33,782 nt of DNA from Deltaproteobacteria bacterium (GTDB taxonomy: Bacteria; Desulfobacterota; Binatia; Binatales; Binataceae), in the NCBI GenBank assembly GCA_021801125.1, contig JAJYYI010000066.1, positions 1-33,782 on the forward strand, in the 5' to 3' direction. The notes beneath the pieces are model-generated. The model was not told the DNA's origin and searched no databases. It worked only from the letters and a program-made list of their open reading frames with translations. Both the position numbers and the translations under genes were made by a program. The first letter of the stretch is position 1; each line of letters begins with the position of its first letter. This document shows positions 4,411-33,782 of this stretch, piece by piece.

Positions 4411-5793
4411 TCAGGCCTTTATCCACGGCGGCAGTTTAAAGCTGGCGGTCTGGTATGGCGGCGGAGCTATCAGCTCGGGTTCCTTCTTGTAGTCCTGGAT
4501 CTGCAGATACTGATGCGGCATGCCGAGAGAAGGATCGTTGGTCGCGTCCGGGTACGGAATCGCGGCTTGTTCCGGCACGAAGAAGTGCGTGGTACCCATT
4601 ACGCCGCGATATATCATGGCGCGCAGCCGATCCGCGACCTTGCGATTCTGATCGAACTCGCCCGGTCCACCGGTGCCGCCGGCGATCGCCGCCGCAAGGG
4701 CGTAATAATGCGCGCTATCGTAAACCTGCGCCGCCACCAGCGGACTAGCCGAAGGTCCGAATTTTTTCTTGTAGCGCTGATTGAAGTCCTCGCCAATCTT
4801 GTCGCGCAGCGACGCGATTACGGTCGAGTAGAGCACGCCATTGGTGGCCTTGCCGCCGATTTCACGAAACGCCGCGAGCGACGGTCCGTACTGCATGTAC
4901 ACCAGGCTATTCGTCGGATTGGGCGTGAACTGAAGCATGAACTGCGCCAAATCCTGGGGCACCCAGTGAGTGACCGCGATAACCGCGGGCGGCGCTTGGC
5001 GAATCTTCGCAAGCGTCGGACCCCACTCCGAAATCGGAACCACCACTGTCTCGAACAGGCTGAGATCCCATTCGTAACTCTTGGCCTTCGCTTTGATGGC
5101 GTTGGCGATCACCACGCTGTAGTTCTGGGAGCCTGTCACCACGGCGATTTTGTTGTTCGGCCGCTTCCATTGTCCCGACTTAACCAGCCCGTTGAGGAAG
5201 GCGAGTAGCCCTTCCCCATACCAGTACTCGGCCGGATCGCCCATGAAGATGCCGAAGTACTTTTTCGGATTCTTGCCGACCGTGCTGTGATGAACGATGT
5301 CGGTGTTGTGGTGGATATAGATGATTCCGGCGTCCGCGATCGTGTCGTATTCCGCGGTAACGGCGCCGGTGTTGTAACCGTTTACGATAGCGTGCACACC
5401 GTAACGGTCTATCAGGCGCTGCATCGCGGGGATAATGTTGTCCGCTCCTTGCTCTTTGGTGTCCTCGAAGTGCGGCTCGAGCGGTCGGCCGAGGATGCCG
5501 CCAAGGGCATTTATCTCGCCGCAGGACATCTCGAGCGCGCGCTTGAACTCGATACCATCGGCCGCGGCCCATCCGGTGAGCGGCACGCCGGCGCCTATCG
5601 GGATCGGCTTAGTGTTGGTCGCTTTGCCAGCTTCTTTGGCCTGGCTGTTGAGAGCGGCGAGCATCCCGCTGCCTAGAACGGCACCCGCTCCCGCGGTCGC
5701 GCCTATCGCGCGTTTGAGGAAGCCGCGCCGGCTTGAGTCGGCGACCCCCGTGCTCCGGCCGTCAGTGGTCGGCATTCTTGTACGCATCATCAT
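4411..5793 (-). CDS. Tat-exported ABC transporter substrate-binding protein (HAAT family)
   Basis: Periplasmic binding protein of the branched-chain/amide/urea type, 460 residues. A twin-arginine signal SRRGFLKRA is at about residues 22-30, followed by a hydrophobic stretch AGAGAVLGSGMLAAL, so export is by the Tat route. The mature part starts near PIPIGAGVPLTGWAAADG, the usual first strand of Peripla_BP_6 domains. Three ATG codons in a row (5793, 5790, 5787) follow GGGAGAT; the third has the best spacing to the ribosome site, so the protein may be two residues shorter. It lies 66 bp after the DMFase-like large-subunit gene and just before livG. Its likely ligand is an amide or a product of amide hydrolysis; this is inference from context. 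Confidence 0.9.
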   Translation of the reverse strand: MMMRTRMPTTDGRSTGVADSSRRGFLKRAIGATAGAGAVLGSGMLAALNSQAKEAGKATNTKPIPIGAGVPLTGWAAADGIEFKRALEMSCGEINALGGILGRPLEPHFEDTKEQGADNIIPAMQRLIDRYGVHAIVNGYNTGAVTAEYDTIADAGIIYIHHNTDIVHHSTVGKNPKKYFGIFMGDPAEYWYGEGLLAFLNGLVKSGQWKRPNNKIAVVTGSQNYSVVIANAIKAKAKSYEWDLSLFETVVVPISEWGPTLAKIRQAPPAVIAVTHWVPQDLAQFMLQFTPNPTNSLVYMQYGPSLAAFREIGGKATNGVLYSTVIASLRDKIGEDFNQRYKKKFGPSASPLVAAQVYDSAHYYALAAAIAGGTGGPGEFDQNRKVADRLRAMIYRGVMGTTHFFVPEQAAIPYPDATNDPSLGMPHQYLQIQDYKKEPELIAPPPYQTASFKLPPWIKA

Positions 5794-28173: not shown

Positions 28174-28857
28174 TCAGGTCGCCTTCGCCCGCCGAGTAAT
28201 GGACGCGCTCTGCGCGGGCGTTACTGCCGGCGCGGCCTTGCCGTTTTCGACGAGCAATAGAGCCCTGACCAGGAATGATTCGCGCTGGAAAAAGCCGCTG
28301 GTGTGAAAGGACGTTCCGAGCTTCAGCAGCGCGTAGTCGAGGTGATGCACCAGCTCATGGATTAACGTGCGCAAAAAGGTCTTGGGCGCGACGAGATCGT
28401 GGCGCTTTGCGGTGCGCGCCCAGAGCACGATATACGGAGAGCGCGGGCGCGGATAGAAAATACCGTGGAGTTCTCCGCGTTGATTTCGCGGCCGTACGCC
28501 GCGCACCTCAACCATGGGCGGCCCAACGCCAAGAGCGTAGCAGAGCGCGTCGACCAGCCGCTGCGAGGCTTGAGTGATCGTTCCGAGGCGCTGTGTCGCC
28601 AGAGCGGCGCGCAGATTCTCGGCCTTGGCCCTTATGTCCGGGGTAACCGTGAGCCGAAAGCCCTGGACACCGTCGCTGGCTAGATAGCGCTTTTGATCGG
28701 CGGCCGAAAGGCGGTAAAAGTACGCGGGCAATTTCGCCTGGGCCGCAGCCTCCGGATGCGCTTGCGGCTGAGCCAGCGCTCGGGGTTGCACTCTCGCCGA
28801 CATAGAAGGCAGGCGGGCCTTATCGGCTTGCTGAGGCGGTAACGTCGGCTGCCGCAT
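28174..28857 (-). CDS. Putative HExxH metalloprotein of unknown family
   Basis: 227 residues. The motif LIHELVHHLDY gives an HExxH zinc site near residue 170; a downstream SFHTSGFFQRES could supply the third ligand (His near 189). The segment before it, FYPRPRSPYIVLWARTAKRH, resembles the strand that precedes the active helix in SprT-like and similar peptidases. The first 40 residues are Pro/Gln/Ala-rich. ATG 28857 and ATG 28803 are both possible starts; neither has a strong ribosome site. No signal peptide is seen. I do not recognise the family by name. It lies about 250 bp downstream of the coenzyme M-like operon on the same strand, probably as its own unit. Confidence 0.68.
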   Translation of the reverse strand: MRQPTLPPQQADKARLPSMSARVQPRALAQPQAHPEAAAQAKLPAYFYRLSAADQKRYLASDGVQGFRLTVTPDIRAKAENLRAALATQRLGTITQASQRLVDALCYALGVGPPMVEVRGVRPRNQRGELHGIFYPRPRSPYIVLWARTAKRHDLVAPKTFLRTLIHELVHHLDYALLKLGTSFHTSGFFQRESFLVRALLLVENGKAAPAVTPAQSASITRRAKAT

Positions 28858-29109: not shown

Positions 29110-30111
29110 TTACAGGACCTCTGCGCGAGCCGTAAAAAGCGCCGGCGCGCCTCCCGTATGCACGAAAATTACCGTGTCCTCACTGGCTACGCGACCTCGG
29201 GATATAAGCGCCGCCAGACCCGCAAACGCTTTGCCCGTGTAAGTCGGGTCGAGAAAAATTCCCTCCGTTCGCGCCGTAAGGCGAATCGCTTCCATTCCTT
29301 CGGCACTAGCAATCCCATACCCCTCGCCGATAAATCCGTCGTGCACCACCACGTCGCCATCCGACAGCGCGACAGGTAGATCGAGCGTCTCAGCGGCCGC
29401 GTCGCCAAGCGCCAGCACGCGCCGCCTGACTTCAACGGCCGGGCGACTCACCGTAACGCTCTCCACGCGCCAGGGTAGGTGAAGACTTTTCACTCCCAGA
29501 AGCCATCCCGCGTAGGTTGCCCCGGAACCGGCCGCCAGAAGCACCAGGTCGGGCCGGATGCCGCTTTCCGCGCAATGCGCGGCCGTTTCGTAGACAGCTA
29601 GAATGTGCGCGGCCACGCCAAGAGCGCACGCTCCACCGCGCGGAATTCCGTACGGCCGCCGGCCGGCGCGGGCCATGTCCGCGACGACCGATTCTATCTC
29701 AGCGTCGACCGACGCGCGGTCCGGATTTCCGGTGAAACGGACTTTGCCGCCGAGCATCCGAGTCAACAGATAATTGCCTTCCGTGCGCGGCGGCGGCGAG
29801 CCCCACAAAATCGCGAGGCTTTCGATTCCCGCGAAAGCCGCGGCAGCCGCCGTAGCCCTCACGTGATTCGACTGCGGGCCAGCCCCGGTAACCACGATAT
29901 CAGCCTGCCGAGCTATAGCGTCGGCCAGCAGAAACTCAAGGCCGCGAACCTTATTGCCCCCGAAACCGAAGCCGATGAGGTCGTCACGCTTAAACCAGAG
30001 ATGCGCTATACCGAGACTGCGAGCAAGCCTTTGGGCCGGGCTCATCGCAGTCGGCAGGCTTGCCAGTCTCACTCTGGCGAGCGCACCAAGCTTGGCTTCC
30101 AGAGGATACAA
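29110..30111 (-). CDS. PLP-dependent D-cysteine desulfhydrase/ACC deaminase-like enzyme (XcbE1 candidate)
   Basis: 333 residues, fold type II PLP enzyme. The PLP lysine is Lys54 in GGNKVR, and QSNH at 80-83 is the usual substrate-contact motif; LLAAGSGATYAG binds the phosphate and FVHTGGAPALF ends the domain. On its own it would be called D-cysteine desulfhydrase. In the Xanthobacter coenzyme M cluster the gene xcbE1 encodes a member of this family, and the published pathway uses a PLP enzyme in its thiolation chemistry. Here it is the last of four tightly packed genes starting with a ComA homologue, so that role is more likely. The start is TTG, 3 nt after the preceding stop, with AGG 7 nt upstream. 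Confidence 0.85.
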   Translation of the reverse strand: MYPLEAKLGALARVRLASLPTAMSPAQRLARSLGIAHLWFKRDDLIGFGFGGNKVRGLEFLLADAIARQADIVVTGAGPQSNHVRATAAAAAFAGIESLAILWGSPPPRTEGNYLLTRMLGGKVRFTGNPDRASVDAEIESVVADMARAGRRPYGIPRGGACALGVAAHILAVYETAAHCAESGIRPDLVLLAAGSGATYAGWLLGVKSLHLPWRVESVTVSRPAVEVRRRVLALGDAAAETLDLPVALSDGDVVVHDGFIGEGYGIASAEGMEAIRLTARTEGIFLDPTYTGKAFAGLAALISRGRVASEDTVIFVHTGGAPALFTARAEVL

Positions 30112-30114
30112 AGC

Positions 30115-31476
30115 TTACCTGCGTCTTAATTCTTCGACGACGCGGCCAGCCAGCGCGGAGCATTGGCCGGCGTTTCGCCGATAGTCAAACAAATCCGAAA
30201 TCTCCTGCGCCGAGAGATGCTCGCGGACCGTCTGAGAGTTACACACAATCTCCTTGAAGGGCCGTGCGTCGCGCTGAGCCGCAAGCCCGAGTTCGTACAC
30301 CAGTTCGTGCGCGCTCTGCTTCCCCATCTTGGGTGCTAGCGCAAGCATAAGAGCCTCCGAAGACACCAGACCCGCGGTCGCGTCCAAATTGCGCCGCATC
30401 CGCTCTGCGTCAACTTCAAGATTCGCCGTGACCGAGACCAGCAGAGACAACAACCTGCACGCCGCTGCGGAAATTTCCGGGACGGCTTCCCATTCGACCT
30501 TCCACGAGCGTCCGTCCCGCTCATGATCATGAACCATGCTTTCGCCTAATAGCGCCGCGTTGTGTCTAATGACACGCGCCAGAGTCCCTAGATGCTCGGA
30601 AATCTCCGGGTTCCGCTTGTGAGGCATCGTGATGCTCCCCACGGCGCCTGACGAGGAGCCTTCCCGCACCTCTGCGATTTCGAAGCGCTGCAGGTTGTAG
30701 ATCTCGTGTCCAATCCTGTCGGCGGTGGCACCGATGAGAGCCAGCAGGTTGGCGTAATCAACCACGCTGTCGCGCGAGTTCGTCCAAGAAATCAACGGAG
30801 GCTTAAGCCCCAGCCGCACACAGAATTTTTCCTGCACTTCAAGCGCGCGAGGGCCAAGGGCAGAGAGGCTGCCAACTCCTCCGCATAGCTGGCCCACGCC
30901 AAGTTGCTGCGCTGCTCTGTTCAGGCGGTCGCGATGGCGCCTGACCTCGGCGGCCCATCCGGCCACTTTGAAGCCAAACGTGATTGGCAGTCCGCATTGC
31001 CCGTGGGTGCGTCCGACCATAACGGTGTCGCGATGCTCGCTGGCGAGCTTCAGGAGATTTGACTCAATTTGCTCCAAATCTCTTGCGATCAGCGCCTGCA
31101 CCCTCATCAGCGCTCTGCCCATCCAGGTGTCCGTCACGTCCTGCACCGCGGCTCCGTAGCATACCCACTCGCCGAAGCCGCTGGGACAGCGTTGCGCAAC
31201 AGCGTTAATTATGCCCACTAAGGAATGATTCGAGGCCTCGAAACCGCCGCGCACCTCCGCCAAGAACCGCTGGTCGACAGCTATGGCGCGGCAGACATCG
31301 GCTACCCCTTTTCCTGCCTCGGCGGGAATCAACGCAAAGTCAGCCTCGACCTCGGCCAACACAGCGAGGATCTCTAGCCAATCCCTGGTACGGGGCACGT
31401 CGTCGAAGATCGCCCGCAGCTTCTCTGTGCTCCAGGCGCTGCCGAAAATGGCAGAGTCAATTATGTGGAGCGCCAT
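30115..31476 (-). CDS. Aspartase/fumarase-superfamily lyase, PurB/CMLE-like (XcbD1 candidate)
   Basis: 453 residues. The superfamily signature SITMPHKRNP is at 281-290, with the flexible catalytic Ser281, and the first conserved region GRTHGQCGLPITFG is at 155-168. It looks most like adenylosuccinate lyase or 3-carboxy-muconate cycloisomerase. It is not in a purine or aromatic cluster. Instead it overlaps the preceding lyase gene by 20 nt and follows a ComA homologue. The bacterial coenzyme M pathway uses aspartase/fumarase members after phosphosulfolactate synthase, and by position this is the second. Its reaction (decarboxylation step or another) cannot be fixed from sequence. Confidence 0.83.
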   Translation of the reverse strand: MALHIIDSAIFGSAWSTEKLRAIFDDVPRTRDWLEILAVLAEVEADFALIPAEAGKGVADVCRAIAVDQRFLAEVRGGFEASNHSLVGIINAVAQRCPSGFGEWVCYGAAVQDVTDTWMGRALMRVQALIARDLEQIESNLLKLASEHRDTVMVGRTHGQCGLPITFGFKVAGWAAEVRRHRDRLNRAAQQLGVGQLCGGVGSLSALGPRALEVQEKFCVRLGLKPPLISWTNSRDSVVDYANLLALIGATADRIGHEIYNLQRFEIAEVREGSSSGAVGSITMPHKRNPEISEHLGTLARVIRHNAALLGESMVHDHERDGRSWKVEWEAVPEISAAACRLLSLLVSVTANLEVDAERMRRNLDATAGLVSSEALMLALAPKMGKQSAHELVYELGLAAQRDARPFKEIVCNSQTVREHLSAQEISDLFDYRRNAGQCSALAGRVVEELRRR

Positions 31477-32998
31477 CTATCTCGATCCCGAGCTTAACTA
31501 CACGGCACATTAGCTCTTGATGGGCGGCCGCGATTCGCTCCTCGGCGCTTCGCCACCACTGCGCATACTCTGCCAGACTGCCGCGGCATTCGTCGCACAT
31601 CGCGGCTATCGCACCCGGCCCCGCACCTCCCAGGTTTTCGCGCGCCGCCACGGCTTTTGCGGGATTGAGCGCTTGCTCTAATACGTTCACCGGAATCTTG
31701 AGCGGTTGGCCGGTCATCTCCGCGGCAACCGCGTCGAGGTCGGGGCCGGTTAGCGTCGACAGGCTGCGCCCGCACGCCACGAACTGACGCACCAAACGAG
31801 CGACGATTTGATGGGCCGACCTGAAATCAACACCTGTATGTGTCGTGATCGTCTCAGCCAAGTCCGCCGCCATCACAAATCCGTCAGCGGTTGCAGCCTT
31901 ACCCCTGGCGCGATCAAAGCGCATTTCCCGCAATACTCCGGCGATCAGGCTCGCGACGTTAGCAACCTGCTTCAGCGCATGGGGGACCTTTCCATATACG
32001 AAGATCCGGTTGTCCATTTGGCCGGTGGCGGTGCGGTTCAACGCGACGACGGCGGCCTGGGTTCCGACCATCTCATTGGCGACGCCCCGAACGTAGGCTA
32101 GCGCGTACGGGTTTTTCTTTTGCGGCATCAGCACGCTCGCGCGCGCATACCGGTCCGGTATTTCGATCAGGCCGAACTCTGACGTAGCAAATATCTGGAG
32201 GTCTTCCGCAAAGCGCGCAAAATTGATCGTTGCGGCTGTCGCCACTGCCATGGTCTCGATCGGCACGTCCGCCTGCCACATCGCGTCGCGAGCATGAACC
32301 ACGCATCCGTCGAAGCCGAGAAGCGCGGCCAACCTTGCACGGTCTTGCGGCAACCGCGAGCCGTTAATCCCTCCGCATCCCGCGGGGCTGAGATTCACGC
32401 GGCGGAAAAGATTCTTGGCACGGTCGAGATCGCGAAGAATCGGATAAACGAAGGCGATTAGATAATGGCCGAACGTGGTGGGCTGCGCTGCCTGAAGGTA
32501 GGTGTAGTCCGCCATGATCGCTTCGGCGTGCTCCTGCGCGCGCTCGATCAGCGCCGTCGCTGCCTTTACCAGCTCTTTGCCAACGGCCAGGAGTTCCGAA
32601 CGCACGACAAGATGGTAGGCGACGGTAGCGGCTTCGCGCCTGGTTCGTCCGACGCCGAGCCACCGCGCGGCGTCGGTTCGGCGCGCCAGATACGCCTCGC
32701 GATTAGTATACAGATCGCCTCGTGCGGGGTCCGGAGCGAAGTCCGCGGGGCGTCGGCGCAGGTGTTCGAGCGCCGCAAGCAATTCGCGGCCCGGCTGCTC
32801 TGGAACAACGCCCGCCTCAATCATGACGACGGTATGAGCCAGGTCGGCATAACTCATCCCGTCGAAAAGAACGGCCTCTTCGGCAAGCTCATGCGCGAAG
32901 GCGCTGGTAATCAGTTCAGGCGCCGGCGCGGAAGAAAGACGGCCCCCTACGCTGAGAGAAACGTCCTCCGGCTCTGGCCGGGCGTCACGATTTCCCAC
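31457..32998 (-). CDS. Argininosuccinate lyase-like superfamily member with altered active site (XcbC1 candidate)
   Basis: About 513 residues from GTG 32998, overlapping the end of the ComA gene by 14 nt; the frame is open to 33118, but that part overlaps comA and is Arg-rich. It starts with [15 protein letters not shown], like the WGGRF region of argininosuccinate lyase. The signature [10 protein letters not shown] is at about 288-297. Two key sites differ from true argininosuccinate lyase: the SRNDQ substrate motif reads TRREA, and the catalytic His of YTHLQ is Tyr ([15 protein letters not shown]). It is therefore unlikely to make arginine. By position after comA it matches XcbC1, which removes phosphate from phosphosulfolactate to give sulfoacrylate. 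Confidence 0.82.
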
Positions 32999-33782
32999 TT
33001 CTGTTAACCAGAGGAGGCTCCACCTTCTCGGGAACCCACTGCCCCGTGCGCAGCATGTGTTCCGCCGTCTCCTCCAAAGTCTCAAAGCGCAGGCCCGCGC
33101 GCAGCGCTTCAACCGCAAGCACGTGGTCGGGTGCGATATTCCCCAGACTCGCGTTGGCGCCGAAACGGCGCACCAAATAAGCCTGCTGGCTCGGCAGTGG
33201 CGCCTCCCAGATAATTCGGTCTAGCTTGGCTCCCATCAACTCGCAGAACTCCCTGAGCATCGGCTCGCGCACGGCACCCCCGGCATCATAGATACCCACG
33301 CCTTTCCCTGAATCGCGGGCTTCGATGACCACCCACGCGGCTCCCCACTCCAGGTCAGTCAGCGCCTGCTCTGCCATCTCAACGGCCGTGGGTTGTCTCG
33401 TCGGAGCCTTCTTGCCGACCTCGGTGACGGGAGTCAGCCCCGCGTCAAGCGCGCAATTGATAACGTTGCGCCGCCGCTGAGCGGGCAGAGAAATCGTCCC
33501 ATCCGAAACCTCAACGGCAGTAAAGCCCACCTCGCGCGCGCGTCTCATGAACGCCCGACAGTGCTCCTGGATCAAGGCGACCTCGAGCAGCGTTCCACCC
33601 GGGTACGTGAGTACGCCGAGCTCGCGCAACATTTCGAGTTTTTCACACAACACCTTTTTTGGCGCCAGCGCGGAGGTGCCGAACCCGCACTTCCAATGGT
33701 CTATATACGCGGCGGCCGCATCGAGCGCATCGTGCGTTCGCATCACGCCACAACCTGTTTCGATAACCATCGTTACCCCTGT
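32985..33782 (-). CDS. comA: Phosphosulfolactate synthase (ComA/XcbB1 family), 5' end outside window
   Basis: TIM-barrel enzyme that adds sulfite to phosphoenolpyruvate to make phosphosulfolactate, the first step to coenzyme M. Family motifs are clear: [85 protein letters not shown] and [18 protein letters not shown]. The last ATG in the frame is at 33770, but the four codons before it read TGVT and join MVIETG into the family pattern G-L-T-V-V-L-D-K-G. No stop lies between there and the edge, so the true start is probably beyond 33782. ComA relatives also exist without coenzyme M (YitD, Hsa32); the neighbours decide the role here. Confidence 0.9.

Follow-up and report, generated by a model that had tools for sequence, protein, structure and literature searches.

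A predicted bacterial coenzyme M biosynthesis operon in a nitrogen-metabolism gene context in the family Binataceae

The DNA stretch analysed here (the window) is the entire 33,782-base contig JAJYYI010000066.1 of a Deltaproteobacteria bacterium from the family Binataceae (assembly GCA_021801125.1). Four minus-strand genes at its end, comA-xcbC-xcbD-xcbE, are predicted to be the four 3′ genes of a complete five-gene bacterial operon for coenzyme M (CoM) biosynthesis, xcbABCDE. The operon is of a known kind; what appears to be new is its nitrogen-metabolism context. We labelled the genome G000 (3.5 Mb in 150 contigs, 96% complete) and two of its contigs C57, which is the window, and C59, and we compared it with G001, a genome of the same genus whose completeness is also 96%. 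The complete xcb operon probably has a non-epoxide, nitrogen-linked role, and CoM most likely serves nitrile or carbamoyl nitrogen metabolism in both genomes. The operon belongs to a larger, probably sigma-54-controlled cluster that would assimilate a nitrogen compound.

An initial annotation of the window had described four minus-strand genes with junctions of 14, 20 and 3 nt and had assigned them to the CoM pathway. Their place was borne out by the coordinates in the list of open reading frames (ORFs; Table 1), with which the junctions also agreed: comA and xcbC overlap by 14 nt with the GTG at 32998 as the xcbC start, xcbC and xcbD overlap by 20 nt, and a 3-nt gap separates xcbD from xcbE. 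The pathway assignment stood as well, all four products scoring above the curated NCBI cut-offs and far exceeding chance. ComA reached 289.7 bits (cut-off 280) despite its missing N-terminus and aligned with the solved Methanocaldococcus ComA (1qwg) over 235 residues, including the TEVGKK, IEARDSGKG and GRESGKG motifs. XcbC scored 667.6 bits (cut-off 575) against 279.8 with the ArgH model, XcbD 637.3 bits (cut-off 600) against 444.7 with the next best model, an adenylosuccinate lyase subfamily, and XcbE 480.9 bits (cut-off 450), with CuyA at 280.5 and the D-cysteine desulfhydrase family at 240.7. The expected grouping with Xcb proteins and not with catabolic relatives was found, since the scores lay well above those of the ArgH, PurB/PcaB, CuyA and D-cysteine desulfhydrase models and, in the XcbC tree, the Xcb proteins and the ArgH-like proteins of this class fell into separate groups (support 100/100). 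Trees were built for XcbA and XcbC, and ComA, XcbD and XcbE were assigned by model scores and identities. The comparison with Xanthobacter autotrophicus Py2 that had been called for gave 61-62% identity between ComA and both XcbB copies, 50% for XcbC (44% for the second XcbC copy), 54-56% for the XcbD copies and 57% for XcbE. Downstream of xcbE, a 227-aa ORF carries a HELVHH metallopeptidase-like motif and had no Pfam or NCBIfam match. A terminator scan returned 7 sites versus 5.6 in shuffles.

The window ends within comA. A second ComA fragment was located at the extreme end of C59, where xcbA stands beside the comA start, and the ends of C57 and C59 share an 84-nt overlap that is 91.7% identical. 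We infer that the two contigs join and that the imperfect overlap reflects, most simply, close-strain variation, because G000 has one xcbA and one long comA and G001 is contiguous in this region; on the same grounds an assembly artefact or a second copy was rejected as its cause. XcbA scored 450.5 bits with NF052538 (cut-off 150) and was 59% identical to the Xanthobacter Py2 protein. On C59 the comA ATG overlaps the xcbA stop by 8 nt, and an identical 8-nt overlap is present in G001, in which xcbA-comA-xcbC-xcbDE is contiguous and XcbD and XcbE are fused in one reading frame. The ComA, XcbC and XcbE of G001 passed their family cut-offs, and its XcbD, truncated at the edge of the locus, reached 586 of 600 bits. 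Each genome carries a single XcbA, and the two sequences group together in the XcbA tree (100/98) within a radiation of Pseudomonadota sequences. Predicted membership in the bacterial CoM operon family was supported by every sequence test that was run.

The order of reactions proposed here is modelled on the Xanthobacter pathway, and the individual steps are also based on the NCBIfam names. ComA would form phosphosulfolactate from phosphoenolpyruvate and sulfite, XcbC would convert it to sulfoacrylate, XcbD would turn sulfoacrylate into a cysteine adduct, and XcbA together with XcbE, which depends on pyridoxal phosphate (PLP), would process the adduct to CoM. The CoM would then be made and used by the linked enzymes. 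The Xanthobacter pathway is described in PMC12068725 as completely determined, its enzymes making CoM. A 2024 paper gives methanogens and aerobic alkene-utilizing bacteria as the only organisms in which CoM genes were known (PMC11507031). No 16S gene is present in G000. RpoB of the G000 lineage shares only 54-59% identity with representatives of Pseudomonadota, Nitrospirota and Chloroflexota, compared with about 72% or more within its class, so that, as the initial annotation had anticipated for the case of an uncultured phylum, the taxonomic range of predicted bacterial CoM synthesis does widen. Xcb operons were also found in Chloroflexota and in one metagenome-assembled genome labelled Nitrospira.

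The known bacterial use of CoM is epoxide opening by epoxyalkane:CoM transferase (EaCoMT). While the CoM operon identity put forward at the outset was upheld by scores, identities and the XcbC tree, the alkene or epoxide use proposed with it was not. With the Xanthobacter enzyme as query, EaCoMT gave no match in G000 or G001 at 1e-5 (control: Methylocapsa aurea, 77% identity), and neither genome contained a member of PF01717, the wider Pfam family of EaCoMT, for which the controls G440 and G591 were positive. Loss of EaCoMT through incompleteness in both genomes is unlikely because each is 96% complete. On the basis of these searches an epoxide use of CoM was rejected, and the genomic context is nitrogen metabolism. 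One could still argue that CoM serves alkene or epoxide metabolism as in Xanthobacter and Mycolicibacterium and that the partner genes were missed, as the epoxide type includes the nearest characterised relatives and most of the 48 named xcb loci, and a CoA-transferase gene stands beside xcbA in most of the 48. We consider this very improbable, given that EaCoMT and PF01717 are absent from two independent genomes and that no CoA-transferase gene adjoins xcbA in either. The Xanthobacter Py2 plasmid pXAUT01 (Xaut_5051-5055, 5067-5070) carries the same five families, with 50-62% identity for the best copies, and its first operon is also ordered A-B-C-D-E, whereas its operons are accompanied by 2-hydroxypropyl-CoM lyase, 2-oxopropyl-CoM reductase and CoA-transferase genes, in place of which G000 and G001 have nitrogen genes. 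Methyl transfer to CoM by MtaA-type enzymes was likewise rejected for this genus, because the URO-D superfamily yielded one match per genome in G000 and G001, HemE-like by score, and nothing beyond it.

The genes next to the operon were then compared between the two genomes. In G000 the Nit1C families MSMEG_0572, MSMEG_0567, MSMEG_0568 and sll0787 all scored over cut-off on C59, and FdrA, AllG, AllH and carbamate kinase occur together, with FdrA, a relative of succinyl-CoA synthetase alpha, at 439 bits for NF004760 (cut-off 433). In G001 the xcb genes open a 14-gene run whose members overlap or are separated by gaps of 189 nt or less. The cluster content is kept between the two genomes and the order is changed; by BLAST, no AllH-like gene was found in the G001 cluster. 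A Nit6803-type nitrilase (NitC) remained below cut-off in G000 and G001, the best match (225-227 of 502.6 bits) lying elsewhere in the genome. Between the divergent regulator and xcbA of G001 we found a sigma-54 promoter-like site, TGGCACAGGTTCTGCA, matching at 10 of 12 positions. Sites with at least 10 of 12 matches numbered six in 171,624 positions, which corresponds to about 0.02 expected in the G001 xcbA upstream region. The strongest match across the 86 kb that were scanned (11/12) lies upstream of the glycosyltransferase gene, and the G000 counterpart before allG is weaker (9/12). The best conserved protein of the cluster is a PF04909 amidohydrolase, for which there was no PDB match, no plasmid match and no other match at 1e-40 among 395 phylum genomes, a draw that did not include G001.

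Only 2 of the 148 genomes of the class encode XcbA, and the operon was therefore probably acquired. This could be taken to mean that chance alone, for example a shared mobile element, brought the xcb operon and the nitrogen genes together. Such a coincidence appears highly unlikely, as the content is kept despite the differing order in the two genomes, G001 holds it as one same-strand run, and a divergent version of the cluster exists in Methylocystis. The latter lies on a Methylocystis iwaonis plasmid (NZ_CP143315, NZ_AP027143), where a divergent xcb set stands beside FdrA, AllG, CoA-disulfide-reductase (CoADR)-like and Nit1C genes, the combination seen in G000 and G001; its FdrA, AllG and CoADR-like proteins are 42%, 41% and 50% identical to those of C59. 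It differs in that its Xcb proteins are only 34-42% identical, in that it has a Nit6803 nitrilase, and in that it shows no AllH-like match and no carbamate kinase or amidohydrolase nearby. Methylocystis sp. G591 has the same xcb/nitrogen cluster, and both it and M. iwaonis (genome G616, whose contig C2 matches the plasmid by position) carry a second, ordinary epoxide-type xcb operon with a CoA-transferase gene. Because each of these two genomes has two xcb operons, one in each context, the nitrogen context is suggested to have its own need for the xcb product. In M. iwaonis, two short EaCoMT-like fragments, one with an in-frame stop, lie at a distance of about 20 kb from the Nit1C-linked xcb genes and represent a decayed copy.

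The Nit1C-linked Xcb proteins of Methylocystis, except XcbA, scored below the NCBIfam cut-offs (XcbE 212 of 450, XcbD 502 of 600, XcbC 419 of 575 and ComA 267 of 280), and for this reason that set possibly makes a relative of CoM. The same divergence of linked sets would favour the idea that the pathway product in G000 and G001 is itself such a relative, another sulfonate thiol or a sulfonated cysteine; we regard this as quite unlikely, because the window proteins all pass the curated cut-offs and XcbA and XcbC of both genomes branch within the epoxide-type Xcb proteins.

Two other systems resemble parts of the cluster. In Pseudomonas, the Nit1C cluster is tied to cyanide assimilation (PMC11049912); it shares with G000 and G001 MSMEG_0572, the radical SAM (NitD), GNAT (NitE) and AIR-synthase-like (NitF) proteins and a divergent, NitA-like sigma-54 regulator, whereas NitC is absent from the two genomes, which instead have xcb, AllG, FdrA, carbamate kinase and CoADR-like genes. 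Escherichia coli AllG/FdrA relatives interconvert oxalurate and carbamoyl phosphate (PMC11326118). The corresponding allFGH-allK oxamate carbamoyltransferase operon has FdrA, AllG and carbamate kinase in common with the cluster, as well as AllH in the case of G000, but it belongs to allantoin breakdown without CoM synthesis, whereas the G000 and G001 genes are linked to CoM synthesis.

Among specific forms of the nitrogen-linked role, the one we favour most, although it is speculative and taken by itself rather unlikely, is that one-carbon nitrogen groups, cyano or carbamoyl, are carried on the thiol of CoM. A group derived from cyanide, a nitrile or an amide would become bound to the CoM thiol and end as S-carbamoyl-CoM, cyanide being proposed because of the Nit1C link in Pseudomonas. 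AllG/FdrA would then exchange CoM for phosphate to give carbamoyl phosphate, from which carbamate kinase would produce ATP, ammonia and CO2, while the CoADR-like flavoenzyme would reduce CoM disulfide and so keep CoM reduced. The substrate of such a route is a guess. The CoADR-like enzyme, which has a single-cysteine SPCGIP motif in G000 and Methylocystis, would also fit a view of CoM as a low-molecular-weight thiol of general function, which this enzyme keeps reduced and which supports the nitrogen cluster only indirectly, for instance against cyanide or disulfide stress. CoADR-like genes near xcb in Xanthobacter, Nocardioides, Mycolicibacterium and other epoxide-type loci speak for this, but the AllG-FdrA-carbamate kinase genes of the same run would be left unexplained, and we hold it to be an unlikely account.

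Several points weigh against CoM serving nitrile or carbamoyl nitrogen metabolism. The S-carbamoyl-CoM step is proposed from chemical reasoning only. Carbamate kinase and the amidohydrolase do not occur in the Methylocystis clusters, nor the nitrilase in G000 and G001, and since these enzymes are not common to both, the shared core may act on a non-carbamoyl group. In G000 the linkage itself is indirect, because the xcb half and the nitrogen half lie on separate contigs joined by the imperfect overlap; in G001 it is direct. Finally, AllG-FdrA are also found in other members of the phylum, in G265 together with carbamate kinase; neither Nit1C nor xcb genes accompany them there over the stretches that were read, so they could constitute a separate oxamate pathway.

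Table 1. Positions of the predicted genes and other features in the window and in the compared loci
Feature	Location	Strand	Family model	Remarks
comA/xcbB, phosphosulfolactate synthase	window 32985..33782	-	TIGR03849	5′ end cut by contig end, start codon on C59
xcbC, phosphosulfolactate phosphate-lyase, aspartase/fumarase superfamily	window 31457..32998 (GTG start) or to 33118 (TTG)	-	NF052535	
xcbD, 3-sulfopropionylcysteine synthase, aspartase/fumarase superfamily	window 30115..31476	-	NF052536	
xcbE, PLP-dependent enzyme of CoM biosynthesis	window 29110..30111	-	NF052537	
227-aa ORF	window 28174-28857	-		
allH-like, sigma-54 activator	C59 (locus L003), upstream of xcbA	-		
allG, fdrA, MSMEG_0567 GNAT, sll0787 AIR-synthase-like, carbamate kinase, MSMEG_0572	C59 (L003), next			in this order
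amidohydrolase, MSMEG_0568 radical SAM, CoADR-like, glycosyltransferase, short FdrA-like protein	C59 (L003), then			
short FdrA-like protein, glycosyltransferase, divergent sigma-54 activator	G001	-		
xcbA-comA-xcbC-xcbDE-allG-fdrA-GNAT-AIRS-arcC-dsrE-amidohydrolase-dsrE-radical SAM-CoADR	G001	+		14-gene run
xcbDE fusion	L025:3-2252 (G001)			
PF04909 amidohydrolase	L003:12778-13623 (C59, G000); L025:8598-9443 (G001)		PF04909	87% identical between the two
radical SAM, GNAT, AIRS, MSMEG_0572, glycosyltransferase, Nit6803 nitrilase	M. iwaonis plasmid cluster			further genes
EaCoMT-like fragments (L103, L104)	NZ_CP143315.1 ~175033-175373			

Other xcb-like loci were also observed. On four Chloroflexota/Anaerolineales contigs (L048, L050, L059, L063), xcbA, comA and xcbC stand beside URO-D superfamily proteins; xcbD and xcbE are also present in L050, L059 and L063, and the L048 contig ends after xcbC. 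The best models for the two URO-D proteins that were scored were those of MtaA/CmuA-type and methylcobalamin:CoM methyltransferases, below cut-off. RACo-type activators are present at these loci, with FolD in L059, and the L050 genome gave no EaCoMT and 16 URO-D matches. A methyl-carrier role for CoM is possible in these bacteria. In another Anaerolineales genome (L060), xcbA and xcbC are adjacent with no comA or xcbE nearby, and a weak XcbD-like match lies 4 kb on. Within the same class as G000, four genomes of other families (G039, G045, G051 and G053; L026-L029) have an XcbC-like lyase adjoining a divergent ComA (33-38% identical), with no XcbD, XcbE or XcbA orthologues nearby. These pairs, which show a different arrangement and no XcbD/E matches, were set aside; they possibly belong to a different sulfonate pathway starting at phosphosulfolactate.

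Our literature search found no paper linking Nit1C with CoM, although an earlier mention in the primary CoM-pathway papers is possible. Two genomes that lack an epoxide enzyme yet have the complete operon, built into a run of nitrogen-metabolism genes, undercut the practice of inferring alkene use from xcb genes, and bacteria may use CoM for something not yet described. A carrier function, if real, would add a third biochemical role of CoM to methanogenesis/alkane activation and epoxide opening, and it would account for part of the Nit1C cluster. The association opens a way into this little-understood cluster, and M. iwaonis, with both kinds of xcb operon, provides a cultivable organism in which it could be tested.

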